Assembly (NCBI GenBank): GCA_012976225.1
Contig: JAAVVG010000006.1
Coordinates: 372,001 to 436,000 of the forward strand
DNA length: 64,000 nucleotides
Source of the DNA: Golubevia sp. BC0850
Taxonomy: Eukaryota; Basidiomycota; Exobasidiomycetes; Golubeviales; Golubeviaceae
Reading direction: 5' to 3'
Shown here: positions 12,581-37,386 of the stretch, piece after piece
Position numbering within the stretch: position 1 is the stretch's first letter
Layout of the letters: each line of letters opens with the position of its first letter
Made by a program: the position numbers and the translations under genes
The notes under the pieces: model-generated
Seen by the model: only the letters and a program-made list of their open reading frames with translations
Told to the model about the DNA's origin: nothing
Database searches by the model: none

Positions 12581-12592
12581 GTAGCCGGCTAC
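12581..12592 (+). promoter_or_regulatory. 12-bp perfect palindrome in the leader, shared with the gene at 36.5 kb
   Basis: GTAGCCGGCTAC is identical to its reverse complement and sits 78 bases before the start codon, downstream of the TATA box. The same 12 bases occur at 36385-36396 in front of the related secreted precursor. I saw it nowhere else in the window. It may be a site for a dimeric transcription factor or an element acting in the 5' UTR. Confidence 0.6.
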
Positions 12593-12669: not shown

Positions 12670-14433
12670 ATGTACTTCAACAAGATCGCCATCGTCGCAG
12701 CCGCAGTCGTTTCGGCCACCGCCACCGTCTCAGCTTTGCCTGTTAAGGAAGGTCAACCATCAGAAGCTGAGGTGAGCTGCTTTGATTATTGGGTACTCTC
12801 TGCGCTTTGAAAAGAGCCCGACCTCTGACTCGATCCTCTCTCTCTTATTCCTGAAACAGTTGTCAGCCAGAGCTCCTCTGATCTTACCTGCAGGAGGTGC
12901 AGGAGCTCTTGACCAATTTTTCAGTTCTAAAGAAGGTGAAGAGTTCCTATCCTCACTTCAAGATGGTGACGATACCCTTGAGAGGAGAAGATTACCTTCG
13001 GCTGCTTCTCTCTGGGCTATCAACCGTTCCGGATTCGCTGCCACTAAAGCTAGAATCGAAGCTCAACTCAAAGCAGCTTTCCCAAACAAGGAAGCTGAAG
13101 ACTACGACCTCTTCTCTCGTGACCTGGTGAGTCATTCTGCTTTGGAAAGATTGCGTTCCTTTCTGTCGTCTGCGTCCCCGCCCCCACGTACGAGAGGCCG
13201 CAGTCTCTGAGCTGATTCTACTTTCATTCACTTTTGATCTCCCACACGCAGCTCTCTAACCTCCAAGAGAATGATCAAGAAGGCCTTGAGAGGAGAAGTC
13301 CACTTCCTCCTGCTTACAGCGCTCCTGTCTGGGGAGCCAACCGTGCCAGAGTCGCTGCTGCTTTGACCAAAGTCAAAAACTTCTTCTCGGGAAAGGAAGC
13401 TGAAGACTTTGACCTCTTCTCTCGTGACCTGGTGAGTTAGTCTTGCGACGCCCATGCTCGCTCATGTCAACATTTTTCTCTTCACGTTCAAAAGACCGGG
13501 GCTCTCTTGACAAATTTCCCTTTCCCTTCCTTCCCATCTCCCATACAAAGCTCTCTCTTGTCCAAGAGGATGATCAAGAAGCTCTTGAGAGAAGAAGATT
13601 GCCTTCGCCTGCTTCTCTCTGGGCTATCAACCGTTCCGGATTCGCTGCCACTAAAGCTAGAATCGAAGCTCAACTCAAAGCAGCTTTCCCAAACAAGGAA
13701 GCTGAAGAATACGACCTCTTCTCTCGCGACTTGGTTAGTTCGGGAGTCTGTGGTTTGATATGAAGTCTGGTCTCTTCTTCTCACTGACGTCGATCCCTCT
13801 TTGTCTTCTGTGTACGCAGCAAGAGATCTACGAGAGAGCTGACCTTCCCGCTGGAGCTCCTTCAAAAGGTAATACTATGAAGAGCTTGTTGATGGCAGCT
13901 GCTGGAGGTATTGGAGGTTCAGCACTCTACCAGACTGTGATCAAGCCCTACTTGGATGGCATGAAACCTCGTGATCTAGAAGCTTCCCTCTCTCGTGAGT
14001 CCTCAAAGAAGAGTCATGGCTTTATCTCTTCTACCCCCTGAAGCAGCTTCAATTCTTAAACTTCCTTCTCTTTCTCTACTCAGCTGAGCTCATGGCTGTC
14101 CTCAGAGATCTCGATGAGAGCTCTCTCTCTGATTCACCCGAGAAGAGAATGAAAGCCTTCCCAATGACGACCGCAAACAAGGTCACTGCAGCTATTCTCG
14201 GAACTCTTGGAGTCGGAGGAACCGCTGCCTTGACTTGGTTGGCCGCAACCAAGGAAGCTCAGGACGCTATGGAGCAAGAAGCTCTTCGCCGTGACGACAG
14301 TTATTCATCTGTAAGTATCCCTCCATCTTCTCAAAATCCAATCTGGAGTCTCGACTCACTCTGCTGCATCTTCCACTCTTCCTCTCCTCAGGTTGCCACT
14401 CGCGATGTCGACGACTTCGATCTTTTGGGCTAA
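12670..14433 (+). CDS. Secreted kexin-type repeat precursor, novel family member 1
   Basis: Seven exons in phase: 12670-12771, 12860-13126, 13252-13431, 13551-13733, 13820-13994, 14084-14310, 14392-14433, 391 residues. Residues 1 to about 22 form a signal peptide ending SALPV. Exons 2-4 each carry a unit of about 60 residues: a dibasic site (LERR, residues 75-78, 136-138, 196-199), a tryptophan-containing helix-prone stretch, and the ending KEAE(D/E)(Y/F)DLFSRDL. Further dibasic sites are KR323-324 and RR371-372, which would release a 48-residue peptide with a hydrophobic glycine/alanine stretch (about 336-357) and a KEAQDA motif. The C-terminus is DVDDFDLLG. There are no cysteines. Architecture resembles Kex2-processed fungal precursors such as Ustilago Rep1, but I recognise no sequence homology. 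The likely route is secretion and cleavage in the late Golgi; function is unknown. Confidence 0.8.
12980..13733 (+). repeat. Three tandem exon-encoded repeat units of about 60 residues
   Basis: Units lie in exon 2 (12980-13126), exon 3 (13252-13431) and exon 4 (13551-13733). Units 1 and 3 share about 98 consecutive identical bases (13004-13101 and 13611-13708), including every synonymous site. The middle unit has clearly diverged. All three end in KEAE-x-x-DLFSRDL with a phase-0 intron directly after. Confidence 0.85.
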
Positions 14434-14922
14434 AGGTCTGAATTGTTTCCTTCGACTGCATGGCTCCATGTTCTTGATTCTGTAGAGTCTCTCTTAAGTA
14501 CCTAGTCTCTCGAATGAAGTGGTTGATTATTTGAAAACAGACACCGGTCGAGAATCGAGAACCTCTGAGCCCTTGAGGACTGGGGGAGCCGAAAGATCAA
14601 GGTCTCAGGAGCTAAATCAGAGGAGAAGCGATCTCACTTCTTTTCGATTTCACCAGTATTTATTGCGAAAAAAAGTGTCGAGAACAAATAAGGAAGAGAT
14701 GGGAAAGGGAAGGAAACGAAACAGTGGAAGAGCAACGCTGGAGGTAATCAGAAAGGTAGATTTGAGTTTGTTGCCTTCTAGATCGGTTGATGAAAAGAAA
14801 ACGGTTTCGAGGAAGACTGGACTTAGTTCGCTATTTCTGAGAAAGGAAAACTGAGGTCGAGGCGTTGCGTCTTTGAGAGTCGAGAGAATCCGTCTCTCGC
14901 CTTCTCTCCACCCAACCAGAGG
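14434..14922. other. Intergenic spacer
   Basis: This 489-bp stretch lies between the secreted precursor and the complex I subunit gene. An open frame at 14519-14854 has lysine/arginine-rich, domain-free translation and no splice context, so it is not called. The segment probably holds the 3' UTR and the promoter of the downstream gene. Confidence 0.4.
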
Positions 14923-16263
14923 ATGTCATTACTAAGAAGTTCAATCCCACGTTCCTTGACTCGTCAAGTTCAACTTTCAGCTTCAACCAGTCAAATCCGT
15001 CACAACATTTCAACCAGGGATGGTCCAGACGCAAAGCATTTAACTCCTTCAAGAGCTGCTGGTTCAAGAGATGTGGCTCAAGAACAGAAGGATAGAGAGA
15101 CTATTCCTCTACAGGCTAGCTTAATCAGCGATGCCCCTCGTGAGTACAATCCTGGTATACAGTCGAACCGTACCATAGAAGGAAGGGAGGGAGACAGGAT
15201 CATTCCCGAGACAGAAGAGGGCACCCAGAGGAAGGAAAGGAAGCAAGGTCTACCATCATGCCTCTTATCTGTCATGCAGCGCAGGCTGAGAGACGAAGGA
15301 AAATAAAGAACAATTGGAGCTAGAAAGAGACTGCGAGTTCTTGTTCAAAAGAGTGGGACACGATCATTCCTGAGAGACCATACCTGCCAATCAGGTTGAG
15401 CATGCTCTGTTCCCTGGACGATCTGAGACTCGATGTCTCTCAAACCTGAAGAAACCGGGAGAGTCTGCAACAAAGCGCTTCAAGGTTTTAATTGAGACTG
15501 CAGCCAGCTAAGTCTTCTCTGGTGAAAGCAATGCCTCTCTGTCCTCATTCAGGCTTCCTCCAACTCTCGATTATCCTCTCTCATCTCACTTTCCCTACTT
15601 TCACTTTCATCGCAGCTGAGCTAACTCATCGTGCCGTGCGAATCTTCAAGCCAGCAAAGACAGCTAACTCTTCTGGAAAAGTAGGTCAACCTTCCTCGAA
15701 TTAAGTAGTCCAACTCGGTTCTTGTCAGCTGATAACACATCCTTCTTGCCATCCTCCTTCTTCTACCCGAAGGCTGGAACTGCCAGCTGGCGTGTTGACT
15801 TCGATATCTTGCAAGGAAGTGCGAGATGGGAGAATCCTCTGATGGGTTGGGCTAGTAGGTGAGTAACAAAGGAGGGTGTCTCAGGAGGGAAATATCAAAG
15901 GGCTCGAGGGGAAGGGATCTGCTTTAGCTATGATGGATGTTGATGTTCAGGTGGAAGTCGATTCATAAGAGGAGCGTTGGTTTCATAGTCACATCTTTCT
16001 TGATTAACAACGAACCCTTCCCACCCTGTCCCACCCTCTTTCCTTTCATTCCCTGCAGTGGAGATTACATGCAAGGAACCTTCCTCAAGTTCCGTTCTCT
16101 AGATGATGCAATTCACTTCTGTTCAAAACAGGGTTGGGACTACTTCGTCCAGAAGCCTCAAGCTCCAAGAATTCCACCCAAGAGTTATGCTTCGAATTAC
16201 GATTACGTTCCTGCTAGTAAACTGAGTAGCAACGGTAAATTAAGAATTCACCATACCAAGTAG
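14923..16263 (+). CDS. NDUFS4: NADH:ubiquinone oxidoreductase 18-21 kDa subunit (NDUFS4 family)
   Basis: Accessory subunit of mitochondrial respiratory complex I, in the matrix arm. Four exons: 14923-15139, 15616-15680, 15773-15858, 16059-16263, 190 residues. Residues 1-40 are rich in Ser, Arg and Thr without acidic residues at the start, fitting a mitochondrial presequence. The family domain follows: RAVRIFKPAK, then TASWRVDFDIL, RWENPLMGWASS, DYMQGTFLKFRSLDDAIHFC and KQGWDYFVQ, ending with PKSYASNYDYV. The order and spacing match the NDUFS4/21-kDa family. Intron 1 is 476 nt, long for this window. Presence of this gene implies a rotenone-sensitive complex I. Confidence 0.93.
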
Positions 16264-16468
16264 AGGGAAGCTGGTGGACTTATCCAACTTTGTTTCTAGA
16301 CATTCTGTAGAAGTCAAAGCAGTCGAGTTTCTGTATCGCGTCCGATCCATCGAGTGAACTAGAGTTGAAATTGTAGAGAATCAGTTCCGACACTCAAGCA
16401 ATCGAAAGGCTTTCGTCAAGAAGTTTAAAATTTCTCAAGGGAAAACTACAAGTCATACACAAACAGTT

Positions 16469-18837
16469 CTAGCGTCTATTCTTCATCATCTGTTCCATCG
16501 CTACTTGACTCGCTGTCTTTGGTTGTTTCGAGCTTGCAGTCGTAGTTGAGCTGCTTCCCTGCGGCTGGCTAGGAGTGGAACTTTTTCCTCCCAAAGTGGA
16601 TCCAACCCCATAGATAGAAGCAGAATCAGACATGTCGCGACTTGAGGTGGAAGTAGAACCAGAGTTGAGAACTTTCTCAGCAGGTTTGACCCATCGAACC
16701 GTCGTTGGTTGTTGATTGTCTTTCATCTGCGGTTGAGGAGGCAGATGACATACGATTGATTAATTGAGAGACTGCGGTTACGAAAACCTTGAGCAAATCT
16801 TGAACTCACGGCACCTTCCTCCGCCAGCTTACGAGCTTGTTTGGTTTCCGATCGAGGGAGAAGCCAAAAGCGACAGTTACAGCTACCAGAAGAGGGAGGA
16901 AAGCAGTTCACATTAGAAACGAAAGGGTTTGCTTCTTCACAGTTCGCACATCAACTTACTCGATATTTTCGTATCCCCTTATGACGTGGTCCAACGTCTC
17001 CCAAAGATCTCTGTCAGGAACCTCCCCTCCGAAGTCACCAAGTGCCGAAGAACGAGTGAGACGCCAGGAATTGGTACGCCACAAGAAGATGCTGGAGGCG
17101 AGGAATTTCGATTTCAAGAGAAGAAAAAGGAAGAGGTCAGGACGGGCGAAGGAGGGTGAACATCTCCCTCTCTTCAAAGGAGGAGGATGTCTCGAGAACT
17201 CACTCTTCGGAGATTCCCTCTACAAGCCATCTCTCATCCGTACCGATCACGATTTGGTCCCTTCCTTCTTCTTCCCATTTGACGTATTCCAAGGCAGCGA
17301 GAGCGGCTCTGAGTGTAGCTCGAACTCCACTAGTCTTATGAAATCCGCTAGGTCTCTCTAACCTTCTACTCATGTTGAAGACTTTAGACTTTCCCTCGTC
17401 CTCTTTGAATCCAGCCTCTATTTCCAATAATCTTTGCTTCTCAGCTTCCACGTCTTCAACTCTCTCAGGTGAGAAATAGACTCCTAATCCAGCTCTCGAA
17501 TCCGAACCTGAATCATTGCTTCCAAATCTTGATAACCAGGATTTCTCAGTAGCCTTCTCTTCTCTCATTTCAACGATTTTAGCTTTCATTTCGCTTGGGC
17601 TCAACTGTAAACCTAGAAGTTGTTGAGCTTGCACTTGAGCTTCTGCTAGAGCCGCAGCCTTTTGTGATGTCAGGCAAATACCTGAAATCAGCAAGAGACA
17701 TTGTCTCGGAGATGTCCTTCTGATTAATCTTGAAGGGAAAGGGAAAGGAGTTGAAGTGAAAATATCTGAGACTAGAAGAGGAGCATTTGGATTTCTCTCT
17801 CTCTCCTCTCTTTCGTTGATAGTCTTGTTCGAAGGATTCATGAAAGTGCTGGTGGTAAAGATACTTTTCCCGTCATCCGCAATGGATAATCCACCTTCTT
17901 CCTCAATTCTCTTTGCTTCTAGATCTTTTAAACCAGGTACATCTCCTTCCGCGTTGATTCTATGCCAAGCTTGTTCATCTAACTCTGGTAGTAGAACTCC
18001 ATTATCTCCACCTTGCTCATTTATCCTTCTTCTTTCTTCGTTTGATCTTTCAAGACCCTTGTGAGTGGTCCTCTCTTTCGTCGACCAAGGTTGCTGTCCT
18101 TCTTCTCCTGACATGGAAGGTGGAGCTCTGAATGGTGTGACGTTGACTCTGTCTAGAACGGCTTTAGGGATTCGATTTGGATCTTCTGATCTACTTTTCC
18201 TTGAGGCAGAGTCCACTTTTCCGGAGAGATAGAGAGAAGAAGCAGTCATCGTGGACATGCGAGAAGATGTTGAACGATGAGTGTCAGAGATTGAAGGATC
18301 GTATCCTTGACGTGGGTCCCCTCCCCCATAAGATGTCATGTTGGTCGAAGAACTTGAATTCCGATCCGGAGTCATATCGATAGAGGCAGCATAAGAAGCC
18401 GCATCTGAAGGTCCAAACTTGTTTGTTGACTTCGCATTCAATTCCAGTTTTGATAATCTATCCCCCATCTCGTCCTGATTCTCTCCTCCTTCGTCTTCCT
18501 CTTGAAGAACAAATGGATTGCTTGACTCTTGTTTACTGTTCTTTGATGAGACAGTTGATGGTCCAGACACCTTGTCGTAGAATGGAATGAAAGGCAAAAA
18601 CAATCTCTTCTTCCTATTATGGGCTGCCATCTCATCTGGAGCATACGAGATTCCATCTGGAAGATCTGAATCTAGTCTGATTTGCATTGATGCGCCTTTG
18701 GGCTTTGGATAAGAAGTAGTTGAGGCAGGGTTGGACTTGCGAGAGCTAGAGGAAGGAGCGTAGAAAAGCGCTGGTGGTACGAAAGAGCAATTCCCAGCAT
18801 CTGAGCTCATGTTGCAGCTGCCTCCGTCGTCTCCCAT
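16469..18837 (-). CDS. RNase H-fold protein with degenerate active site
   Basis: Four exons: 18837-17204, 17091-16960, 16882-16810, 16726-16469, about 698 residues. Residues 1-370 are Ser/Asn-rich and disordered. From about 373 the order of a fungal RNase H-like domain is seen: PRQCLLLISGIC (strand 1), AGLGVYFSP, RLERPSGFHKTSGVRATLRAALAAL, IVIGTDERWLVEGI, RDLWETLDHVIRGYE, and FWLLPRSETKQARKLA. In active relatives these blocks read V-DG-AC, NRAELRA, ATDSEYVVEG and N-x-x-AD. Here the first Asp is Ser, the Glu is Thr and the last Asp is missing; only the Asp of GTDE remains. A catalytically dead, possibly nucleic-acid-binding protein is inferred. A variable linker of about 90 residues is inserted after strand 1. 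The start (ATGGGAGACGAC) is chosen over an in-frame ATG 183 bases upstream. Confidence 0.8.
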
Positions 18838-19109
18838 CTTGAGGTTTGATCTGATAGGGGCTTTGAGATGAAGGAAGAGAAGGAAAGAACAAGAGGAAAA
18901 AGAAGAAGAAGAAGGATGGCTTTGGAGAAAGGAGAACGAGAGAGGTTCGCCAAAGAAAACGAGACGTCTCGAGTTCCGTGAGCAGACCGCGCAACGCAAA
19001 AGTCGAAGGTTGGAGGTCACAGGAGACAGAAAAGCATATCAAAAAGGAAGCTATGTACAAAGTAGGAAATGGTTCAGAGGGGCAAGCAAAACGTGTGGAA
19101 ACCGTACAT

Positions 19110-19501
19110 CTAAGCAGGAGGTCCGAATGGGAGGCCACCTGAGGTTGATGAGAACGCAAAGGGCATGGTAGCCAAAAACTTTCTGATATCACATGGCACA
19201 GTTGAAGGAGAATGGAAAGCAGGAGTAGAGTGAGGTTCATGACGGAAGAGAGGATCTCAAAGGAAATCAGACAAAGCTCACCTTTGTTCTTCTGCCTCCT
19301 TCTTCGCCTTTTTCTCTGCCTCCTGATCCGCATAGAAATCTAGTTCATCGAAAGCTGACTTGAAAGCATAGCCTTTCCGGTCAAAGATGTCTGCTTCAAT
19401 TTGTTGCAATTTCCACATGAGTTTGCTGAGTTACTTCCACTCAATCCATTATACTGTCCCCACCTTCCAATTCGAGAGGGAAGGTTGAAAGAAACGCCCA
19501 T
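19110..19501 (-). CDS. Small lysine/glutamate-rich protein, unknown
   Basis: Two downstream exons are well supported by phase and composition. 19425-19282 encodes MWKLQQIEADIFDRKGYAFK followed by a coiled, charged KKAKKEAEEQR stretch. 19182-19110 encodes KFLATMPFAFSSTSGGLPFG and ends PPA, stop. A 38-base first exon (19501-19464, MGVSFNLPSRIG) fits in phase but needs a 38-nt intron with a GTGGGG donor, so the 5' end is uncertain. The product would be about 83 residues, with an amphipathic helical middle and a Pro/Gly-rich tail. I recognise no family. It sits head-to-tail 272 bp upstream of the RNase H-fold gene and could instead contain further upstream exons. Confidence 0.45.
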
Positions 19502-20169
19502 AAACCGAGAGAGATAAAGAATAGGCTGAGTTCTTTGCTTGTCTCTGAAAGGGAAATCGTTTGATTTGCCTTGTCAGCGGCAAGATCAGGACTTGCTTAT
19601 ATCATGTCTTTGAAGACTGAGCAAAGAGAAGCTCTCGCTTGACTGACGCTGAAAGTCTCTCCATTTGAAATTTGAAGGTGAGAAGCTGATCCCCTTTGTC
19701 TAATTCATGATGCATTGGAGTTATAGATTTGAAGCTGAAGGATGTCATTCTTTTTGAGAATGGATTGAGGTCGAGAATTGAGATTTGAGAATTGGAATCA
19801 GCGATTGCATCGCTCTCCCAATCGAAGGTATCTCCGTTCGTCGAGCAATTCGCACAGCAGTCGAGAAGTTCCAAGTTTCGAGCTGGAATCATCTCATTTT
19901 GTGCTTCTCCTCGATTCTCTTTCTCGAGAACCGAGATCTCAGCGTGGTTTTGGTTACGTAGTGCATACGAAGGAATAGCATACAAGAGAGAAGAAGAAAA
20001 TATGTGCGTTGTTGTGATAGTGTGAGTGAAATGTGAGAGGGAGAGAACAAAAAGAGAGAGAGAGAGAAAAAAAATGGGTGGAAAGAAGAGAAAAGCATTA
20101 AACCGATTGAATTTTGAGTTGGAAGGATTCTTGACGTGAAACAACAAAAAGGACGAGGGGTGAAATGGA
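19502..20169. other. Spacer between uL23 3' end and the small-protein gene
   Basis: A 201-codon open frame on the minus strand crosses this stretch but shows no domain and overlaps the uL23 stop, so it is not called. A purine-rich tract at about 20037-20100 is seen on the plus strand. Confidence 0.4.
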
Positions 20170-21685
20170 TTAAATGAAACCGATCTTGTTGGATACATCA
20201 AGAGCATCTTGGTCTGGAGTTAACTTGATGTAAGCCTTCTTCTTTCCGTCAGGTCTGTGGAGGAAAGAAAGCAGAGGTCGGATCAGCTTCCGAGTGGCGG
20301 TTCAAGGTCCTGGAAATGTGTGGGTTTGACTCTGAACTACAGCTCTGTTTCTGACTGAATTCCTCCTCCCCAATCCGAAGAGGTCATGACCAGTTCCATC
20401 TGCTTTGCACCTTCTCTCATGATTCTCTCAATCCTCAGAAACAGCATCTCCTTCTGGTGCTTGGTGCAACGATCTCCTGGGAGCATAGATCTCTTGATGA
20501 ATGTTATAGTTCAAGCCTTGAGAGCATTGCTTGCTGCTTAAATTTCCACCAAGAACCGAGATTCACTGCTGCATCACAGCCTTTGCCAACTCTCAACCAG
20601 GTCGAGCAGCACTTCTGCCTCAGATCGACCTGAAGTATTCACCTCGTACCTCTAATTTCTCGACCCCTGCTTCAATCTGGTCTCTCTCTCTCGTCCTATC
20701 TGAACTCCTCTCCGTCTCTTGTCCTCCCACCATGTCCACCTCCTTCCTCGACCCATCGCACCTGACCGTGATCCTCCTTCAGCCCACACCCTCGCATCTC
20801 ATCTCTTATTTCTTCATGAGGACTCACCTGATGAGAGTGTTGATGTGAGCAGCTTCAACATCGTACACCTTCTTGATGGCAGCCTTGATCTGACGCTTGT
20901 TGGCCCTACGGTCGACAATGAAGACGATGGTGTTCAAGTCTTCGACCTTCTTCATGGCTGATTCAGTGTTGAGAGGGTACATTAGAGTCTTGTGGGCGTC
21001 CATGCGAGGAGCATGTGGGATACTCTTACGTGGGTACTTTGGAGCACGAGGTAGACGTAGAGTGGTTGGGCGGTGGAAGGTGACTGAGGTACGGACCTTT
21101 CTGATCTTTTGACCAGAAGTTCCCTTGAGAGCAGCCTTCTTGGCAGCAGCAGCCTTGATGGTGTTTGGCTTACCCTTGGCTTTGCCTGCGGCTGTAGGTA
21201 GGGAAGGAGGAGGCAGAGGGTGGGTGGTGTGAGTTTGGATGTTGAATGGTCTTCAGGCAGACAGGCTCGAAGATGAAGAAGAGATCAAATGTGAAGACTG
21301 AATTGTTGAATTGTTGAATTGATTGCTTCATGGGTTGAAGAGATTCTTGAACTTGACGAATTTCGAGGTTCAATTTGGATGTTGGGTTCTTCCTGCTTGT
21401 TGCCTGCTATCAACTCCCCTACTCTATCCCCCTCTTTCCTCTGCGAACTTGAATTCTGCAACATTTGATCCAACTTTCCAAATCCTTTTGACGTCCCGTT
21501 TGATCTTGCTACGAGTGCCTTCCTGAGCACCCTCTCTGTCTTCCTCATTTTTTCTTCCTTCTTGCTCCTTCCTCCCCAACCGATTCTCCTGTTTCCACCC
21601 AGCGTTCTCTAACTCTCAGCGGTGTGAAATCCTGTCTAAAATACTTACCAGCACCGCCAGTTGGACCTTTGTTTCCGGACGACAT
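20170..21685 (-). CDS. RPL25: Large-subunit ribosomal protein uL23 (RPL25/RPL23A)
   Basis: Structural protein of the 60S subunit at the peptide exit tunnel, binding 25S rRNA and docking SRP. Three exons: 21685-21649, 21185-20828, 20254-20170, 159 residues. Visible blocks are the Lys/Ala-rich N-terminal tail, [75 protein letters not shown] and the C-terminal [20 protein letters not shown]. Length matches the family. The two introns (463 and 573 nt) are the longest pair in the window, typical of ribosomal-protein genes; I found no convincing box C/D snoRNA in them. Confidence 0.96.
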
Positions 21686-22428
21686 GTTTTGCTTGAAGTG
21701 AAATTTTGGTGGTGGTCAAAAAGAGGAAGAAGGCTCAAATCGGAGCCCATCAGCGGCGTGCACGTGGCACGACCCTGTCACAACGCCCAAATGAAGATTT
21801 CACTATGATGTCATCTTTTGGTCAATAGCAACGAATAATTCATTCATAAGGAAAGATTCAGTCAAAGCTCTAGAGAGAGGGCATTTGAAGACGGAAGAGC
21901 CCTGCACGCTCTCCACCCACACTCGAGTCTCTCTCTCGCGCTCTCTCTCTTGAAAGTCTCGCCCATGTACTTAGCTAACCTCTTACTTCAAGGGGCTCTC
22001 TGAGATCACTTGGAGAGCAAAGAACATCATGAACTTCTGATAGCTCCCTCGAGGAAGTCTAGGACGCCACCAGCCAGGTAAGTTGCCTGCTCGGTCAGCA
22101 TCTCACTCAGATACTCACTCACTCAGTCACTCAGATCTGAAACTCACACCATGCTGTTTTCTCGCATAACTATTTAAATCTTCAGCGCTTCAGCCCGCTT
22201 TTCAGCAGAGCAGGAAGGAGAAAGCAAATCCGACCTCGCTTCCTAACAACGCCACACTTACGCCAACGTCTCTCAAATCTTTCTTCATTTCTCTCTCTTC
22301 TTTCTTTCCTCTTCCTTCTTTCTTCTCTCCTTTAACTTCTAAATTTCTCTTTCTTCGAATTCTCGTAGGCTCTGGCAGTCTTACGGTCTCCTTTCTCAAG
22401 TGCTGGGCACTCCTTTCCTTTCTTCAAA
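21686..22428. other. Divergent promoter region
   Basis: This 743-bp region lies between the divergent starts of uL23 and the Ser/Thr-rich membrane protein. It includes short tandem ACTC repeats around 22105-22135 and CT-rich tracts at about 21930-21950 and 22270-22330. No gene is seen. It presumably holds promoters for both genes. Confidence 0.45.
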
Positions 22429-25457: not shown

Positions 25458-25827
25458 ATCTTGTCTCTTTCCCTTCAGCTATCTTATCCAGTTTCCCAAA
25501 TTGAATCGTCTCTCGAATTTCTGTATCCTTTCCTCCCCTACTCGATTCCTTCTTTGAAATCTTATCTTGAGTTTTGTCAGTTTTCTGAGGTTTTGAAGTT
25601 TTCGCTCTCGAGCTAACCACTCTAGCTGAGGCAGGGACTACTTAAGGTTTCTTCTACAAAAAGGGGTTTCATAAAAGGTCGTTGATTAAAAATACAGGTC
25701 AATTGCGAATAGGATTCAGAGTTGCATTGAGAATATGAAAAGCCAACCTTCTTGACGATCGATGCGGGTCTTGATAGTTCGAGTATATGATTGGATAGAC
25801 GTTTAGAGAGAGAGACCTTGCGAGATT
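25458..25827. other. Convergent spacer
   Basis: This 370-bp stretch lies between the stops of the Ser/Thr-rich membrane protein and the cytochrome b5-domain gene. No coding signal is seen. It is expected to contain two 3' UTRs. Confidence 0.4.
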
Positions 25828-27454: not shown

Positions 27455-27542
27455 GCTTGGGTTGTAGATTGTTAGAAGAGAGAGAGCGTCCGTATCTTCT
27501 CTCCCTTCCCGTCCCATCCCATCCAGAGACGACATTTGAGTC

Positions 27543-29130
27543 ATGGTAAGTTTGAGTATGAGGCAGTGAGAGAGTAGAAAGACATTCAAACAGTTGAGTT
27601 CAATTTATGTTCCCTCTCCCTCTCCGTCTCCCTTTCTTCAGTCTTATGGGTTCGCCAACAAGCAAGGCTCAGCCTTAGCAGGTTCATCAGAAGCAGAGAC
27701 TCCAATTCTCTGTGAAACCTGTTTGGGTCCAAATCCATACGTTAGGATGACAAAACAACCAGTTGGAAAGGAATGTAAAGTCAGTAAAATCAATTCTTTC
27801 CCCTCCCCTCCCCTCCCGCTTCCACTCCCATCCTCCATCCTGAACCTTTCTCCAATCTCCCCCTCTCTTTCAGATCTGCGATCGACCCTTCACAGTTTTC
27901 CGATGGAATCCAGGTGTAGGAATGAGAATGAAGAAAACTGAAGTTTGTACGACTTGTGCAAAGATTAAGAACGTTTGTCAAACTTGTGTTTTGGATCTTC
28001 AGTATGGTTTACCAGTTCAAGTTAGAGATACTGCTTTGGGTCTAAAGAATGAAGCTCCAAGTAGTGATATCAATAGGGAATATTATGTCAATCAAATGGA
28101 GGAAAAGGTGAGTTTTCCTTTTTGTTTTTTTTTGATGAGGAAAGGAAGGCAAGGAAGGAGGGTAGATGAAGATGGAACTTACGATAGAGAGACGAGTTCT
28201 AATTCTGTTGGCTTTTGGCAAATCAAAGGTTTCTATCCGAAATCGAAAGCCCTTGGGATATCTCTGAGTTATTTCCCATTCAAACCCAAGTACCAATCAA
28301 ACACTTAACCCCCATCTCCTTTATCTCTCAGCTCGAAGGATCTTCCTCTCTAATCCCATCTTCAACAGGTCCATCTTCCAGAGCAGGACAAGATCTTTTA
28401 AAAAAACTAGCACGTTCAGATCCAGGATATAAACGAAATCGACCACATTTATGTTCTTTCTATGCAAAAGGGAATTGTACAAGAGGTGATGAATGTCCAT
28501 TTAGACATGAACTTCCAATTGAGAATGAACTTTCAAAACAAAACATCAAAGATAGGTTTTATGGTAGAGATGATCCTGTTGCTAAGAAAATGATGAAAAG
28601 TCATGTTGAGGAAGTTGGATTGACTGCTCCTGAGGATAAGAGTGTGGTGAGTTTTTCTGATTTATGTTTGAAATGATGGTTTAAGATAGAGGGGTTTATC
28701 AGAATTTCTTCTCCTTCTCTTCTTTTCTGATACTTTCACAAAATGTTCGACTGACTTTCTCTGCCTTTCCCTCATTCTGTGGGCTCTCTCTCTCTCTCTC
28801 TTTCTCCCTAAGACATCACTCTTCCTCTCCTCCCTTCCACCAGACATAACCGAAGCTTCAATCCGAACCTTCTTCTTAACTCAAGTCCCAAACCTTTCTT
28901 CTCATCAACTTAAATCCATCACAATGGTTCCCACTTCCAAATGCGCCTTTGTGAATTTCAGTAATCGAGAGAATGCAGAGAATGCTGCTCAGAGATGTAG
29001 TGTCAAGGTGGTGATTTCTGGAAAGGAAGTTAGAGTTGGATGGGGAAGGAGTAGACCTGGAAGGCAGGAAAAGGGTAAGGGGAGGGATAATGATGCCCAG
29101 GGAATGATTGGTGGGAGTGGGGCTGAATAG
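27543..29130 (+). CDS. SLT11: Pre-mRNA splicing factor Slt11/Ecm2 (RBM22 family)
   Basis: Spliceosome component that contacts U6/U2 snRNA and the catalytic core. Five exons: 27543-27545 (only the ATG), 27642-27779, 27874-28107, 28332-28646, 28813-29130, 335 residues. Domains in order: N-terminal zinc-binding region with [35 protein letters not shown] and [28 protein letters not shown]; a CCCH finger [19 protein letters not shown]; and an RRM with RNP2 [12 protein letters not shown] and RNP1 KCAFVNFS. No in-frame ATG exists in exon 2, and the ATG followed directly by GTAAGT joins it in phase, giving [10 protein letters not shown]. The gene is divergent from the cytochrome b5-domain gene with about 88 bp between start codons. 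Confidence 0.92.
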
Positions 29131-29347
29131 TGAGGAGAGGGAGGAGGGATTGCTTCTGTTTAACTGTCATGAAATTATTGTAATACTAGTTCTTTTCTTC
29201 AAGTGTCTATGTGTCTAGGTTTTGAGCTTCGAATTTTGAGATCGATTCCGTCACGTTTTCGAAGAGGGCAACTTTCTTCCGAAGCGTTCTTCCTCTTGGA
29301 CCATTCTCATCCAAAATCGTCCACTCATCAGATTCGAGTTGTTCAAG

Positions 29348-30856
29348 ATGCTTAGATCAACAGTCAGTACTTTAAGGTTACGTTCAACCAGTTTGGCATC
29401 GATTCCATCATCAAATCTTTGTTCAGGAACTCAAAGTCGTACATTAGTTTCAGCAGTTCTTCTATCAAGATATGAAAAGGTTTCAGTCAATCAATTGAAA
29501 GCGACATTAAAAGATAGAGGATTACCTTCAACTGGAAAGAAAGATGATTTAATTAAAAGGTTATTGTCCGATGATACAAAGAGAGCTGGAAGTGAAGCTA
29601 CTAATCCAATCGTTTCTTCTAGGAATGGAAATGTTAAAGAAGTTCAAACCAATAGCAGTAGTAGCAGCACTTCTAGTAGAAAGATTTCCACCACGAGTTC
29701 GAATAAAGCTCAAGTTCAACCCGTAGGAACTACTGATACTGTTTCTTCAAGTTCTTCAACTAGATCTGCCGAAGGAGCTGTTGAAGCAAAACCTGTTTTG
29801 AAAGCAGAAGCTAATCCTCCTGGATTACCAACTAATAAAGCTCCTCATGTTGAAGAAGTCTTTAATATTCAAATTCCTTATTATCCACCCGAACCTTTAC
29901 AAGGTCCTCCTATCGTGAGTTGAATTCAATTCCCAGAGCCAAGCTCGATCCGATCCGGGGGTTTGGTTATGGAGGAAAGTGAGATGGGATTGGGATCCGT
30001 TACTTCCTCGGAAAATGGAATGTATGCCATCTCAATCAGCTTGAAAGCAGTCATTTTCATTCTTGATATCGTTCCCAAAAACTTACGAAGCCAAATTACG
30101 TCCCTTTTTTAACCCCTCCTCTTCCCTTTCACTCGTCAGCCTCTCTTAACTTCTTACATCAACTTCAAACCAACCAACGAATCTAAAGATAGTGGACTTT
30201 CAATCCCACTTCCAAAAGTCATGACAGTTTCAGATCCATCAACTTATCATGGAGGAGGAGTTTCCCATGCAAGCGGAGATGCACAAGCTTCAATGGAAGG
30301 CTCTTCTTCTTCTTCTTCCTCTACCTCTTCTAATTCTCCTTCAATCTTTTCTCAAATCTTAGCTGATGCAACTTCAAGTTTCGAAACTTCCTCTTCTAAA
30401 TCTTCTGAATCTTTGATCACTTCAGCAAAAGAATTGGCTTCAAATTCAACTGAATCTTTCAAAGGTGCTTTGAAGGAAGTCGGAGGGCAATCTTCTTCAT
30501 CTTCTTCTTTTTCTGAAAGAGATGATTCAAATTCAAATTCTAGTGGAAAAGAAGATGGAAAAAGACCATTAAATGAAGAAGAACGAAGAGGTCTTTATGT
30601 TTTAGGTCTGATTGTCGCTGGAGGTTGGATCGCTGGTGGATTAGCAAAACCTTCAAGTAAAGATCATGGTTCTCATAATGCAGTCAATGATGGTGGAATC
30701 ACCACTGCTCCTGGAAACACACTTAGTGGAGGTAAAGGTAGTTCTGGGAAAGCTGTAATTGAAGCAAAGGCAGTTGGATCTTTAGTTGGAGCTTCAAGTG
30801 AGAGCTTTGGTTCAAGTGGCGCTGGAATGGTTGGAGGAGCTCAGAGAAAGGTTTAG
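29348..30856 (+). CDS. SAP-domain mitochondrial membrane protein (Aim34-like)
   Basis: Two exons, 29348-29914 and 30140-30856, 427 residues. The N-terminus (MLRSTVSTLRLRSTSLAS) lacks acidic residues and is Arg/Ser-rich, fitting a mitochondrial presequence. A SAP domain follows at about residues 46-74 (VNQLKATLKDRGLPSTGKKD, DLIKRLL). The centre is Ser/Thr-rich; FNIQIPYYPPEP is a conserved-looking patch. One hydrophobic segment at about 340-358 (GLYVLGLIVAGGWIAGGLA) is followed by a Gly/Ser-rich tail. Yeast Aim34 has the same order of presequence, SAP domain and transmembrane segment. The molecular function of that family is not established. An in-frame TTG upstream was not used. Confidence 0.75.
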
Positions 30857-31135
30857 ATTAGTGAGGAGGGCTGTGTTGAATAGACAAGGTGTACGGGTGA
30901 TTGGAAAATGATTCCTTGGAGGGTGAAGTTTCGGTTGGAGGGAAACTCAACGATGTAAGATCCGGTTTCATTCTTGTCAAATGCTTTTGAAGAAATCTTC
31001 ATTAGTTTGTTCAACTGCATGTAGTCTCTTCTCTGACATTATTGAAGAGGAGGGCCATGAGAGTTCTTTTAGTAGTGCGAGAGCCTTTTTCCAGGCAGCC
31101 TCATCTAACCTTCTCTCTCTCCTGCCAACCAAGTG

Positions 31136-34100
31136 ATGTCTTCTTCTGGGGATGCAGATCCATTTGAGCATCTAGAAGGAGCTTCAAACTTTGGGGCTAA
31201 TGATTCAGAATACTCCTTCGCTTCCAATAACACTGGAACTCAAGCTGGTACAGGCAGTAGAAACGTAGGAGAATCTTCAATCGATTCCTCTTCAACTTCT
31301 TCACCTCCTTCAAATCGTAATCGAAATGCTGATTACAATTTACCTTCAGATTTGGATTTAGATTTGGAAGATTTAAGCTTAACTGACGCAGATATTGAAG
31401 CTGGCTTGAATTCAAATCAGCAGCATCAGAATCAAGCTCAATCTTCTAACCGTCAACCACCTCCTCATCTAAGTGGTCTTAATCATGGTCACGGTCACGG
31501 TCAGAAGGTTCAAGATCATCATCATCAAGATTCAGATCTATTCGATGAGGAATTAGAGAAAGGAGGAGCTCTACAAACTCAAGTCTTACCTCCTCATTCT
31601 TGCTCTTATTGTGGTATTCACAATCCTAGTTGCGTCGTCAAATGTTTGATCTGTAATAAGTGGTGAGTATACTAATCTTTCTTTGACTTTACTTTAGAGC
31701 AATCCTCTTTGGTCTGACCCTTTCCTACTCTCTCCTTGCCAGGTTCTGCAATTCGAGAGGTTCAACTTCTGGATCTCACATTGTCACTCATTTGGTCAGA
31801 GCTAAACATAAAGAAGTTTCACTTCATGCTGAATCCCCTCTTGGAGAAACTACTCCCGAATGTTACAATTGTGGGGCAAAAAACGTCTTTCTATTGGGAT
31901 TCATTCCTGCTAAGAGTGAGACTGTAGTCGTTTTGCTTTGTCGGTGAGTTGTAAAAATGGGGAGAGAAGAGGAAATGAAGGAAGATTGAGCAACAGGGAA
32001 GTGGAGTGAAGTATCGCTGGTTCAGATAAAGTGGAACAAAGGAGTGAAGACTTGGTCTCCATCGCCCAAGAGGAGTGACCTTCAAAGATCTACCTCTCTC
32101 GTACTCATCTTCCCCTTATTTCCTAACTCTCTCCTCCAGTCAACCTTGCGCAGCTATGCCAGCTTCAAAGGACATGATCTGGGATACCTCTCAATGGGCT
32201 CCTCTAATCGATGACAGATGTTTCTTAACCTGGCTAGTCAAATTACCTTCGGAATCTGAATCCTTACGATCTCGTCCTTTGACATTTTCTCAAATCAATA
32301 AATTAGAAGAGCTATGGAAAGATGATTCAAAAGCTACTTTGGAAGATGTAGATAGAGGAGCTGGAGGAGAAGACGAACCTGCTCCTATCCTTCTAAGATA
32401 TGAAGACGCTTATTCTTATCAAAACATCTTTGGACCTTTAGTCAAGATTGAGGCCGATTACGATAGAAGAGTTAAAGAAGGTCAAACTCAAAATGATTTG
32501 ACTGTCAGATGGGATATGGGATTGAACATGAAGAAGATTGCTTGGATTAACATTCCGGCTTTGGAAAGTGGAGAAGTTAGAATTGCTACGGGAGATGAGT
32601 TGAAGATTAGATATAAGGGAGAGTTGATGGGTCGATGGGAGGGAACTGGTCATGTCATCAAAATTCCTAACAGTGAGTAGTTCTATGTTGAGAACTGTGA
32701 ATAGGGAAAGAAAGGTTGGCTTTCTTCTCTCCTCCTCTCCTTGTCACGATTCTTACCCTACCTTCAACTCCTCTTTTTCATTCCTTCTGCAGACACTTCT
32801 GACGAGGTAGCAGTCGAGCTCAGACGTTCAGAAGGAGTACCAGATCATCTAACTCACAACTTCAGCGTCGACTTCGTTTGGAAATCAACCTCCTTCGACA
32901 GAATGCAACACGCCATGAAGACCTTTGCTGTGGATGAACAATCGGTTTCAGGTTACATCTATCACAGATTGTTAGGACATGAAGTTGAACCAGTAACTCT
33001 AAGAACTACGATGCCCAAGAGATTCTCGGCTCCAGGTTTACCAGAATTAAATCACTCTCAAGTCTTCGCAGTTAAGTCAGTCTTACAGAAGCCTCTTTCG
33101 TTAATTCAAGGTCCCCCTGGAACTGGAAAGACGGTCACTTCAGCTACCATCGTTTATCAATTAAGCAAAATGAATCCAGGTCCAGTCTTGGTTTGTGCTC
33201 CTTCAAACGTAGCCGTCGATCAGCTTACCGAAAAGATTCACGCAACTGGTTTGAAAGTCGTTAGATTGACTGCTAAGAGCAGAGAAGCTCTGGACTCTCC
33301 TATCGCCTATTTAACTTTACACGAACAAGTTGCCAACAACGATACCAACCTAGAACTTCAAAAATTAATTCAGTTGAAGACTGAACAAGGAGAGTTGTCA
33401 TCTTCGGATGAGAGGAAATACAAAGCTTTAACCAGAGCTTGCGAGAAGGAAATCTTAAACACTGCAGATGTAATCTGCTGTACCTGTGTTGGATGTGGAG
33501 ATCCAAGAGTCGCAAAGCTCAAGTTTAGAACAGTTTTAATCGATGAAGCAACTCAAGCAGCTGAACCTGAATGCATGATTCCTCTGATTATGGGTTGTAA
33601 GCAAGTGGTTTTCGTAGGTGATCATCTTCAATTAGGTCCAGTCATTATGAACAAGAAAGCTGCTAGAGCTGGTTTGACTCAAAGTCTTTTCGAGAGATTG
33701 GTTCTTCTGGGAAACAGACCTATCAGATTACAAGTTCAATATCGAATGCATCCTTGTTTATCTGAATTCCCAAGTAACATGTTTTACGAAGGAACTCTTC
33801 AAAATGGTGTCACAGCTCCTGAAAGATTAAGAAAGAACGTCGATTTCCCTTGGCCAAATCCAAATCTTCCCATGTTTTTCTTCCAAAATCTAGGACAAGA
33901 AGAAATCTCTTCTTCTGGTACTTCCTTCTTGAACAGAACTGAGGCTTCAAATGTGGAGAAGATCATTACTGAATTCTTCAAAGCTGGGATTAATCCTTCT
34001 CAAATTGGTGTCATTACTCCTTATGAGGGTCAAAGGTCTTACATTATTAATCATATGCAGTACCATGGCAAACTGAAGAAAGATTACTACAAGGAAGTTG

Positions 34101-35242
34101 AAGTTGCTAGTGTCGATGCTTTCCAAGGAAGAGAAAAGGATTATATCATCTTGAGTTGTGTAAGAAGTAATGAACATCAAGGGATTGGTTTCTTGAGTGA
34201 TCCTAGAAGATTGAACGTAGCTCTAACTCGAGCCAAGTATGGGTTGGTTTTATTGGGGAATCCGAAAGTTCTTAGCAAGGTGAGTCAGTCGAATCGAGAT
34301 TCTTGCTTTCTCGAAGATGATAACAGCCTACGTTTCTGACAATCTCTTCACTCGATTCACTTTCCCCTTCTTTAGCATCCTCTTTGGCATTATCTTCTGG
34401 TTCATTACAAAGAGAAAGGAACTCTAGTGGAAGGGGTCTTGTCAAATCTTCAACCTTCGATGATTCAATTCTCCAAACCACGTAGAGCGCTCGAGAAACC
34501 TGGAGACTTGGCTGCAAGGAGAAGAAGAGAACTCGGAATGGGAGGAGATGCTCTTTCTCTCAATCCTTCTTCTTATGGAAATGCTGGAACTCCAGGAACA
34601 GGAGCCGCCATGGGAGGGGCAGGATTGGCAGTCGGTGGTCCAAGTGGTCGAATGAATGGAAATGGAAGAATGGGATCCAATCCTAGCACCTCAATGGGAA
34701 TGGGAACCGATTCAAACTTCTTCAGAACTCACGATCCAATGAGTTACATTCATTCAGACATCGATTCTCAATCAGTAGTCTCTCTTGGAACTCAAGCCAA
34801 TTACTCGGATTCCATCTCAAATCGAATCATGCCATCTTTCTCTTCAAGTTCTTCCGTCATTTCTGGAACTTCTTCTAGATTACCTGGTGGTTCGAATCTT
34901 GGAAATGGAATGGGAATCAATGGAACTAATTCATCAAGTTATGCTGGTTCTATCATGACTCAAAACGATTTAGATGCTGAATCCGCAATTGGAGCCCCTT
35001 CTTCTATTGTCAGTTCCTCTTCAATCTCAGGTGGTGGTCCAGCTTCTTCTTCCGCAGCTCCTTCAATCACATATTCTCAATCTGATAGATTAAGGAGAAG
35101 ATTGAGTAACAGTAGTATGAGTACTAATGGAGATAACAGTATGCAAGGTTATAAATCTCAAGCTTCTGGAGATCATGATGATGATGATAATCGATCTAAC
35201 TATTCGGTAGCTGTCTCTCAAAGCTCTTTTACTACCTTCTAG
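31136..35242 (+). CDS. UPF1: ATP-dependent RNA helicase UPF1 (nonsense-mediated decay)
   Basis: Superfamily 1 helicase that drives nonsense-mediated mRNA decay in the cytoplasm with Upf2 and Upf3. Five exons: 31136-31662, 31743-31943, 32140-32672, 32793-34279, 34376-35242, 1204 residues. The N-terminal Cys/His domain starts at about residue 157 ([58 protein letters not shown]). The RNA-regulating 1B region follows. The helicase core has Walker A GPPGTGKT (about 526-533), [10 protein letters not shown] (about 670), [42 protein letters not shown] and [11 protein letters not shown]. The C-terminus from about residue 960 is a 240-residue Ser/Gly/Asn-rich tail with SQ sites, as in other Upf1 proteins. 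It is among the longest genes of the window and all phases close. Confidence 0.97.
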
Positions 35243-36300
35243 ACCCAAGACTTTACGAGAAAACCTACTTGTCAGTGGTGTTCTCTCTAGCTAGCAGCCT
35301 ACTCGTTCGAAAGAGGTTTCCAAATGAGAGGGGTCTTCCTTTTCCTTTAGGATTCTTCATCAAAGCCAGTAGAACGACGTTCTTGGATGGAAGTACAGCG
35401 ATGGGAACGCTCCGGGGCTCCTCTGCCCAAGGTAGATGAGAGTGGAAATGGGAGATTCTCGATGGATAGAAGAATCTTCGAGCCTCTTAGCTTGGTATCA
35501 AGAGCCTCGAAACTCTCTTGGAGCAAGATAGTGGCTGGACGGTCGGAAGGACTGTGACAAGATAGATGGTGGGGAAATGGACCTTAGTGGAGACGACACC
35601 TATCAAGCTGGTCCTCTTCACTGAGATCGCTTCAAGCAAGTCGAATCAAAGCGATGAATTAGGAGCCAATTTTCGACACTTTAAATCTTATCTATAGACT
35701 TTCGGAAAGTTTCAAACGTCAAACACCAGGTGGTTGTCAACATTCTAAACTCGTATCAGGTCTTTTCTTTCTTCCTTCTCTCTTTCCTTTGGTTCTATCC
35801 TATCCTACATCCTCACTTCTTTCTATAGTTTCTCGCATTCCTTTTTCTCGAACCCCTCAATCCAATAGCCCCCTTCAAGTCACCTTCAATGTGATTACCC
35901 CCATTCCCCTACTTCTTTTCTCATCCCCTTCCCCCTTGTTCTCGCTCAGCTGTATCTAGCCACAATGCGTGATGCATGATGGGCTCTGATCTTTCAATCA
36001 GAATCCTCAGTCCGAGAATTTGTGGTGATAGAAGGTTTTCTTGTGTGGATTTGTGCATTCAAAGAAGACAAACTTTGGCCGCACTTGATTGATCCCTCAA
36101 TCGACTGCATCAAAGTCTTTAAAATAGACTACGGAGATTTTTTTCAAAGAAGATGGGGTAATGCGGGATCCGACTCCGAGCATTTGTGCTTCAAGATCCT
36201 CAATCTCCTACCTGGCGACCTGTGAGCGAGTGAGCATTTAGAGTTAAGGTTCACCCTCTATCATCTTCTGGGGCCAGCTGATAAGCCTTTTCAAGGATTC
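35243..36300. other. Intergenic region
   Basis: Just over 1 kb between UPF1 and the second secreted precursor with no supported coding region. A 67-codon frame at 36022-36225 has no domain or splice context. The right end leads into the TATA box and palindrome of the next gene. Confidence 0.45.
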
Positions 36301-36313
36301 AAGAACAATTGAC

Positions 36314-36320
36314 TATAAAG
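36314..36320 (+). promoter_or_regulatory. TATA box of second secreted precursor
   Basis: TATAAAG lies 194 bases before the ATG and 71 bases before the shared palindrome. The layout matches that of the related gene at 12.7 kb. Confidence 0.55.
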
Positions 36321-36384
36321 CCTAGCCCGCTTGCGATCGTATTTGAGCCTCCCAAATTCTCTCTTTCCATCCAACTTCTTTTTT

Positions 36385-36396
36385 GTAGCCGGCTAC
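36385..36396 (+). promoter_or_regulatory. 12-bp perfect palindrome in the leader, second copy
   Basis: GTAGCCGGCTAC, identical to 12581-12592, lies 111 bases before the start codon inside a pyrimidine-rich leader. Identity over all 12 bases, with different flanking sequence, argues for a selected element. Confidence 0.6.
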
Positions 36397-36507
36397 TACA
36401 CTTCTTTTCTTCTTCTTCTACTACCACCTCTTTCAGAGTTTTTTTTCTAACCTTTTCTCTTTGTTCTTCAAAAAGTCTTCCTCTTTCATTTCTCTTGCTG
36501 TCAAAAA

Positions 36508-37098
36508 ATGGTTAAATTGCTCAACATCGTTCTTTCTGTCACCTTCGTCTCTTCTTTAGTCTCTGCTTTACCCGTTCAAGTGAGTAGATTCGTGGGTTGA
36601 AAGGTTCATCTCCTTTTCACTTCCTATCTCAGCTTCTGACCAGCACTCGGTCCTCCTCATCCATTGCAGAAGCGTCAAGAGACGGTCGATGAGTTCCTCG
36701 GAAGAGCTCTTCGAGGGGGTTCCGACTTGGAGCTAGACTCCGATTTCCTAGAGAAGAGGCTCAATGCTGCAGCCCTGGCAAAGCTCACTGAAAAGTTCCC
36801 TCAGTGGCAAACAATCGCTAAGACCGTGGGAATCGGTCTAGCCGCTCAAGGTGCTGCCTACGGAGGATGGAAAGCGACCAAATCGAAAGAGGCTCAAGAC
36901 GCTCTCGTTGAGAAAAGATCCTTCAACGACATAGAGACTCGCGGAAACAAGACCAATTATGCATACTTGGGGGGTGAGTAAAGAAAACACAAGGACACTC
37001 TGTTTCAGACCCACGTCAACAAGTTCCATTCCAGCCTTAGCTCCAGCAGGAGACGAATCTTCCATCATGATCTCTAGACCGTTGACTTGGTGTTCTCC

Positions 37099-37139
<41 letters not shown>

Positions 37140-37386
37140 GACTTAAAGGTATCCTTCTCCTTGCACTCAACGCCTTTCGAGCTCCAGCTCCAACGAAGAC
37201 CAGAGGGTTGGACGAAAGTATTAATCAAGTCAGTAACCAAAGATCCAGATGATCCCCCCTTGCCAGAGCTCAGAAACTCACCATTTATCTGTGTTCCCAC
37301 CCGTTCAGGACATCGACCTCAACTGGATCGGAAATGAGATCAGAGCCGAAGCTCGCCGTTTCGATGACTTCGATCTGCTCGCATAG
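36508..37386 (+). CDS. Secreted kexin-type precursor, novel family member 2
   Basis: Four exons: 36508-36579, 36670-36973, 37149-37228, 37309-37386, 177 residues. Signal peptide residues 1 to about 20, ending VSALPVQ, with an intron directly after it as in the gene at 12.7 kb. Dibasic sites at KR25-26, KR53-54, KR106-107 and RR168-169 would release peptides of 28 and 53 residues, a middle segment, and a C-terminal octapeptide FDDFDLLA. The 53-residue peptide has an Ala/Gly-rich hydrophobic stretch and SKEAQDALVEKR, matching TKEAQDAMEQEALRR of member 1. No cysteines are present. The protein lacks the 60-residue repeats of member 1. Function is unknown. An alternative reading as an ordinary wall protein is possible, but the regular KR/RR spacing favours proteolytic processing. 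Confidence 0.75.
37104..37135 (+). repeat. CT dinucleotide repeat in an intron
   Basis: About sixteen CT units near the 3' end of the second intron of the secreted precursor, acting as its polypyrimidine tract. It is similar in kind to the TC repeat at 4866-4894. Confidence 0.8.

Follow-up and report, generated by a model that had tools for sequence, protein, structure and literature searches.

An expanded family of putative Kex2-processed multi-peptide precursors, mostly preceded by one oriented DNA element, in the fungus Golubevia sp. BC0850

The window analysed is a stretch of 64,000 nucleotides from Golubevia sp. BC0850 (contig JAAVVG010000006.1, positions 372,001 to 436,000, forward strand). 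It carries two genes, here termed gene 1 and gene 2, whose translated sequences display a signal peptide followed by a chain divided by Lys-Arg (KR) and Arg-Arg (RR) sites, the layout of precursors processed by the kexin-type protease Kex2. Window features are given by window position, on the plus strand throughout, and loci elsewhere by contig and position. Both gene models are based on exon models, exon chaining and ratios of nonsynonymous to synonymous substitution (dN/dS) between paralogues. Their parts are as follows.

12670..14433, plus strand: gene 1, a precursor of 391 amino acids (aa) in seven exons
12670..12771, plus strand: gene 1 exon 1, signal peptide module MYFNKIAIVAAAVVSATATVSALPV, then nine residues
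12860..13126, plus strand: gene 1 exon 2, pro-part, RR site and repeat unit 1 (RLPSAASLWAINRSGF...KEAEDYDLFSRDL)
13252..13431, plus strand: gene 1 exon 3, acidic spacer, RR and repeat unit 2
13551..13733, plus strand: gene 1 exon 4, acidic spacer, RR and repeat unit 3
13820..13994, plus strand: gene 1 exon 5, ADLPAGAPSKGNTMKSLLMAAAGGIGGSALYQTVIKPYLDGMKP unit, found also in the C61:814 kb member and as a variant in the C44:659 kb member
14084..14310, plus strand: gene 1 exon 6, hydrophobic peptide MKAFPMTTANKVTAAILGTLGVGGTAALTWLAATKEAQDAMEQEAL flanked by KR and RR, predicted with modest confidence to form a long helix
14392..14433, plus strand: gene 1 exon 7, acidic C-terminus VATRDVDDFDLLG
36508..37386, plus strand: gene 2, a precursor of 177 aa in four exons
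36508..36579, plus strand: gene 2 exon 1, signal peptide MVKLLNIVLSVTFVSSLVSALPVQ
36670..36973, plus strand: gene 2 exon 2, peptide LNAAALAKLTEKF...KATKSKEAQDALVE bounded by KR sites, structure model of low confidence
37149..37228, plus strand: gene 2 exon 3, bulk of the hydrophobic part of the GNKTNYAYLGGILLLALNAFRAP peptide, by eye a relative of the paralogues' GKVDYGYLVAGIISAFNAIRA
37309..37386, plus strand: gene 2 exon 4, acidic C-terminus with RR and FDDFDLLA

All introns are of the GT-AG type, 81-125 base pairs (bp) long in gene 1 and 80-175 bp in gene 2; a run of CT dinucleotides lies within intron 2 of gene 2 (37093-37139). An exon-chaining script, with splice-site tables trained on introns of these same two genes, returned identical models for both. 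In the aligned parts of paralogue pairs dN/dS was 0.15-0.49 in all six comparisons, as for constrained coding exons, and the exon models are thus supported.

An initial annotation had described the two genes as a two-member family of secreted, cysteine-free, kexin-type precursors, and reading of the sequence bears out the exon models, signal peptides and KR/RR sites. SALPV does form the end of both signal peptides, and the motif KEAQDA(M/L) is present before a dibasic site in both, as KEAQDAMEQEALRR and KEAQDALVEKR. The chains end in DDFDLLG and DDFDLLA as described, and there is no cysteine in either gene; histidine is also absent from both. The intron said to come right after SALPV does so, one codon later, in gene 2, but in gene 1 it comes nine codons later. 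Gene 1 has five dibasic sites and gene 2 has four. Overlooked earlier were three repeat units of about 60 aa in gene 1, each on its own exon, as were a further cleavage motif and an element upstream of the genes, both described below. By eye, internal repeats are also seen at C61:720 kb, C61:1009 kb and in other members, with none seen in gene 2 or in the 117-aa member at C61:328 kb.

Neither gene has a Pfam match over the cut-off, and protein searches, two of which scored the 7997 candidates sharing most words, found no relative outside this fungus in a collection whose number of fungal proteomes was not established. The family, so far seen only in this fungus, is supported as described with respect to its secreted, cysteine-free and kexin-type nature. 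Six matches in the protein searches (P0001-P0006) are predicted proteins from public metagenomes that by eye are near-identical to exons of these same genes; this fungus or a very near relative was thus sampled in the environment.

The description as two-member does not hold. In the genome as a whole (64 contigs, 25.8 Mb) a search found about 40 such genes: protein similarity or a C-terminal pattern led to 23, to some of them weakly, and an upstream element described below to 17 more. At an expectation value (E) of 10 or less there were 19 own-genome matches to gene 1 and 10 to gene 2, and 63 to the C61:720 kb member at E<=1; these lists take in the exons of the query itself plus weak matches. 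The family matches are spread over contigs C61, C55, C44, C8, C12, C17, C7 and others. Searched as an exact DNA pattern, the DDFDLL[GA]-stop end has 10 occurrences genome-wide, compared with one for its reversed control; the C61:328 kb member was reached by this pattern alone. A first DNA guess, GATGATTTCGATCT, had no match. The membership of C7:122 kb rested on a signal-peptide match (E 0.05), and the gene models of the paralogues are partly uncertain.

Beyond the end of the window, at a distance of 7-13 kb, both genes recur as near copies in inverted order, that of gene 2 at C61:443.1-444.2 kb and that of gene 1 at C61:447.7-449.0 kb. Simple repeats aside, this inverted pair (C61:443100-449000) resembles the window only in the genes and their near upstream parts. 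In the model of the gene 1 copy most of the exon 6 peptide is missing. The gene 2 copy also has a unit of the C61:720 kb type, EKRLNTAASMKWAAGILATAFAGGSVAKNIATR, and thus joins the gene 2 and C61:720 kb branches. With 573 aa in 13 exons, the member at C61:720 kb has the largest model, in which units of several kinds recur.

A signal peptide was read, by eye or by a mechanical rule given below, in both genes and in all 40 listed family sequences; gene 1 and its copy have an identical signal peptide, and L073 and L074, whose signal peptide is that of L072, are left out of the list. Glutamine is found at position 2 in 20 of the 40 and AAP in 28, counts made without a control set, and these shared marks argue for a common origin of the first exons.

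Both genes are preceded by the same 12-mer and, further upstream, by a TATA box:

12492..12497, plus strand: gene 1 TATA box, 89 bp upstream of the element
12581..12592, plus strand: gene 1 element GTAGCCGGCTAC, 89 bp upstream of the ATG
36314..36319, plus strand: gene 2 TATA box, 71 bp upstream of the element
36385..36396, plus strand: gene 2 element GTAGCCGGCTAC, 123 bp upstream of the ATG

The 12-mer has 8 exact copies genome-wide, and its control none. Seven of the copies are upstream of signal-peptide genes with family marks, and the eighth is within an exon named by eye as that of a PI3K-like kinase. The gene at C6:105 kb, absent from the similarity lists, is found under GTAGCCGGCTAC and has the same kinds of unit (EDFLASDEGKAFISKMA, VEKRDL). 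A wider form, GTAGCYGGN{0,2}CTAC, gave 57 matches, which represent 49 sites, compared with 8 matches of the reversed pattern. Of the 33 sites that are 13 bases long, 32 have T or C as the additional base, and the consensus used is GTAGCYGG(Y)CTAC.

Seventeen of the 49 sites are at loci already examined and 32 are in new stretches of 831 bp. The mechanical rule, framed once these new stretches had been inspected for a first time, asks that the first ATG 40-250 bp downstream start a signal peptide. It holds at 36 of the 49 sites (15 of 17 and 21 of 32), compared with 1.9% of 6000 random window positions; the C61:808 kb site is a miss by the rule, yet its model has a signal peptide. In the opposite direction a signal-peptide gene was found at none of 25 tested sites (12 without a family gene on the sense side, that of locus L094 included, and 13 at loci already examined). 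Thus the element is oriented. It stands 54-175 bp before the ATG, and a TATA box is found 71-107 bp before it in 14 of 16 sites at loci read in larger pieces, a count without a shuffled control; for one of the two misses about 30 bp were read.

The exact-form element is upstream of 15 of the 23 members that were reached without it. The gene 1 copy has it with one change, C61:169 kb and C8:490 kb have variants recognised by eye, and C8:571 kb and C8:586 kb have weak forms. No element was seen upstream of C55:1080 kb and C17:10 kb, and there was no exact form in the 67 bp read at C61:878 kb. A literature search returned no paper containing the 12-mer, and no title on KEP promoters (KEPs are Kex2-processed repeat proteins) among the matches listed.

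The CYGGY side faces the gene wherever a site has a signal-peptide gene, so that its place of action could be the 5′ end of the transcript, in contrast to a plain palindromic site for a transcription factor. At the RNA level the GTAG and CTAC arms could pair around CYGG(Y) to form a hairpin. The stem is broken in the gene 1 copy at C61:449 kb (ATAG...CTAC) and kept by two changes in the by-eye variant at C8:490 kb (TTAG...CTAA). Complementarity of the flanking pairs is no better than shuffled (9, 3 and 8 of 34 compared with shuffled means of 6.4, 4.4 and 8.2), and no Rfam match over the cut-offs was found in the window.

Cleavage motifs were counted in 15 members with 3696 mature residues. Two of these (C61:1009 and C8:490 kb) are incomplete N-terminally and one (C12:549 kb) was trimmed at an uncertain last exon; members with models that were uncertain or not yet made were excluded beforehand (C44:659, C61:808, C17:10, C12:371, C61:878, C8:571, C7:122 and C17:203 kb). 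The set contains one cysteine, located in a doubtful exon. KR/RR sites number 55, compared with 22.7 +/- 4.2 in composition-preserving shuffles. Monobasic arginines also show a pattern: of their 92 distinct contexts, 42 (46%) are aliphatic at P4, compared with 19% +/- 3% in shuffles (maximum 30%). The fuller motif, [LIV]xxR followed by D, G, N, S or A, accounts for 37% of the contexts against 8.7% shuffled (maximum 17.8%). With eight less redundant members aliphatic P4 remains at 24 of 56 (43%) against 20%, with a maximum of 34% in 1000 shuffles. According to the part of PMC8528282 available, Kex2 favours an aliphatic P4, and LxxR is an expanded Kex2 motif. Among paralogues ASVESRD and ASVEKRD occur at one equivalent position, and thus the two kinds of site substitute for each other.

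The segments that follow the two kinds of site differ (51 distinct segments of each). After dibasic sites the median length is 42 aa, the mean charge -1.9, and a hydrophobic core (a window of 18 residues with Kyte-Doolittle hydropathy above 1.0) is present in 55%, whereas after [LIV]xxR the values are 15 aa, -3.3 and 20%. The alternation is a tendency, as some [LIV]xxR precede long hydrophobic peptides and some dibasic sites precede short acidic ones. The chains thus appear to carry two kinds of Kex2-type boundary, KR/RR and [LIV]xxR, that separate mostly hydrophobic Gly/Ala-rich segments from short acidic spacers.

It could be argued that the chains are not cut and act whole, as secreted and mostly helical proteins of the cell wall or matrix, with dibasic sites that arise from composition. 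The conservation of aligned parts of whole paralogous proteins noted above would fit such a role. However the KR/RR count is above all 2000 shuffles (maximum 37), the sites tend to sit between hydrophobic and acidic segments, and the SR/KR swap occurs at one place, so that uncut chains are considered improbable.

The predicted peptides were characterised in 15 picked examples. Their hydrophobic windows are rich in Gly and Ala, with small-xxx-small spacing in many. The initial annotation had suggested that they might be amphipathic, and in the sense of a helical face this is not supported for most of them, as one of the 15 has, in its most hydrophobic window, a helical moment that comes up to the 95th percentile of shuffles. 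One peptide of the C12:549 kb member has a strongly amphipathic window (helical moment, muH, 0.62). The predicted peptides resemble membrane helices rich in Gly and Ala, many of them carrying a charged tail, and are unlike classical amphipathic helices. Single-sequence structure modelling of gene 1 exon 6 gave one helix over residues 27-73 of 75, of modest confidence (mean predicted local distance difference test score, pLDDT, 63); the model of gene 2 exon 2 was poor (mean pLDDT 49).

A peptide of about 21 aa, GKVDYGYLVAGIISAFNAIRA, recurs by eye in eight genes, with a diverged form in gene 2. Short conserved peptides of this kind might be ligands in cell-cell signalling and the remainder of each chain spacer; alpha-pheromones are among the KEPs (PMC6339444, as available in part), and by eye LPSA or SPLP after the gene 1 RR sites resembles the XA/XP dipeptides that Ste13 trims in alpha-pheromones. 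Such a start is not general across the family, however, and about 40 genes with many kinds of peptide, and hydrophobic cores typical of membrane helices, make a signalling role rather unlikely.

With respect to processing machinery, P_proprotein matches over the cut-off are confined to a single gene in the genome, at C5:266 kb, a kexin-type gene with a P domain and, by eye, S8 subtilisin motifs and a membrane segment. UstYa (PF11807, DUF3328) has no match over the cut-off in the genome (best E 0.34). This bears on the possibility that the chains are dikaritin-type precursors of ribosomally synthesized and post-translationally modified peptides (RiPPs), with short cores cyclised by UstYa oxidases. 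Such precursors share with the family a signal peptide and repeats separated by Kex2 sites (PMC7329392, as available in part). Many segments are 20-50 aa long and not short cores, and this possibility, already disfavoured, is very improbable.

The genome has several hydrophobin matches over the cut-off. None has an element of the 49-site list within 10 kb, and the eight-cysteine pattern of hydrophobins is lacking in genes 1 and 2, which are without cysteine. That the family replaces hydrophobins was considered and is weakened by these matches. A related proposal is that the peptides are surface-coat, repellent-like products, which would assemble on the walls of hyphae or spores and give them a water-repellent surface, like the Rep1 peptides of Ustilago. 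The Kex2-type layout and the hydrophobic Gly/Ala-rich peptides are in keeping with it, and Rep1 peptides, which are Kex2-released and 37 aa long (PMC6339444), form amyloid-like fibrils on hyphae (PMC8528282; both sources as available in part). On the other hand the hydrophobins leave no gap to fill, and a coat would be expected to need few kinds of peptide, while those found are very diverse; a coat function is thus regarded as unlikely. The peptides are similar in length to those of Rep1, but Rep1 is one precursor with similar repeats, while here there are many kinds of peptide with hydrophobin matches alongside.

The preferred reading, that the genes encode Kex2-processed multi-peptide precursors, places the family near other known systems. 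The Ece1 precursor of Candida contains a hydrophobic, helix-prone piece without cysteine. Compared by description and not by sequence, the likeness is that of a single precursor cut by Kex2 into several pieces, eight in Ece1 (PMC7329392), and the difference is that of a many-gene family with two kinds of site. KEPs likewise have a signal peptide and several peptides per chain split by KR/RR (PMC6339444, PMC7329392), and clear repeats are found in gene 1 and the C61:720 kb member. The family differs from them in that [LIV]xxR tends to bound acidic spacers, in the lack of a visible internal repeat in gene 2, and in number. There are about 40 related genes in one genome, compared with published figures of 5.30 KEPs for the average basidiomycete strain, no more than 18.5 of any one type in a strain (PMC7329392), and 22 predicted KEPs in all in Coprinopsis (PMC9769878). 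The words "promoter" and "cis" are absent from the main text of PMC7329392. Thus the KEP kind is already known; the available parts of this literature were not found to describe a related family of this size in one genome, another cleavage motif next to acidic spacers, or an oriented element shared by the genes. Conotoxin-type gene families have a conserved signal-peptide exon, a variable peptide part and many paralogues. All three are likenesses to the present family, which differs in having almost no cysteines and several peptides per chain, and in being fungal.

Elsewhere in the window, exons of a UPF1 helicase (Pfam) are found between genes 1 and 2, at 31133-34339. An open frame of 1616 aa at 49514-54364 is serine-rich and has an alpha/beta-hydrolase domain (Pfam) at its end, and the open frame 42678-43370 has a match to DUF6534 (Pfam).

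Several observations weigh against the preferred reading. Thirteen of the 49 element sites are without a signal-peptide gene under the mechanical rule. Two genes under the element, L090 and L093, are secreted but have cysteines, and L094, a match by the rule, is probably a transporter exon; the genes found through the element only are thus a mixed set that may include other kinds of secreted protein. In 21 genes modelled from element sites (L090 and L093 dropped beforehand, C7:122 and C17:203 kb included) the dibasic excess is weak, 32 compared with 19.7 expected, with no site in six, which is partly explained by most of them having been read over about 830 bp. KE[AG] is present in 14 of these 21, cysteine makes up 7 of 2309 residues, and the first exon has 18-36 codons in 16. 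That all element-site genes are multi-peptide precursors is a weaker claim than for the other members. It should also be noted that [LIV]xxR is common: in one unrelated control, a UPF1 exon, aliphatic P4 is found in 6 of 22 contexts, none of the six continuing with D, G, N, S or A. The monomer models are low in confidence, and in the available part of PMC9769878 synthetic KEP-derived peptides of Coprinopsis were tested without antibacterial activity, so that membrane action is a guess.

Among the element-site loci, L095 (site C51:10345, on a 23-kb contig) displays a different style of precursor, with repeated leucine/aspartate-rich units such as DLDVNLAKLLNLNIDVSKR, and L080 (site C8:51419) has LGALIPAAKWLGILKEAEE in tandem copies following KR sites. 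L072, L073 and L074 (C6:236, 246 and 258 kb) are three close paralogues within 22 kb, each with an element.

On balance, genes 1 and 2 are reasonably likely to belong to a family of multi-peptide precursors that has expanded, is under joint control and is processed by Kex2, with products that are probably active on membranes or surfaces. On the evidence of sequence, the genes would be expressed and co-regulated and their products cleaved and active on membranes. The signal peptide, usually on its own short first exon, would lead the chain into the endoplasmic reticulum, and in the Golgi Kex2 would cut following KR/RR and [LIV]xxR. These cuts would free cysteine-free peptides of 20-50 residues, each built on a hydrophobic helix rich in Gly and Ala, in many cases with a charged KE[AG]-tail behind it, and the short acidic spacers may hold the peptides soluble or inactive before cutting. 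The oriented element GTAGCYGG(Y)CTAC, common to the majority of family genes, probably turns them on together, and the freed peptides would most likely act extracellularly on membranes or surfaces of competitors or hosts.

A more specific proposal is made tentatively, as it may well not hold in full. One oriented leader element would define a regulon of about 40 precursor genes, and the evolving unit would be the element plus signal-peptide exon, joined to very different peptide exons in the manner of venom families. There would be two cleavage codes, KR mostly before an active helix and [LIV]xxR mostly before an acidic spacer.

Kex2-processed peptides are widespread in fungi, and most are without a known function; in Coprinopsis no phenotype could be detected when kep genes were knocked out (PMC9769878). 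A family of about 40 genes, most with one oriented element, offers a handle on this problem, as a factor that reads the element could switch the whole set on or off and so reveal the roles of the peptides. The double cleavage code predicts exact peptide ends to seek in secretome data. With one shared element in front of the genes, a whole arsenal of peptides may be switched on together in this fungus.

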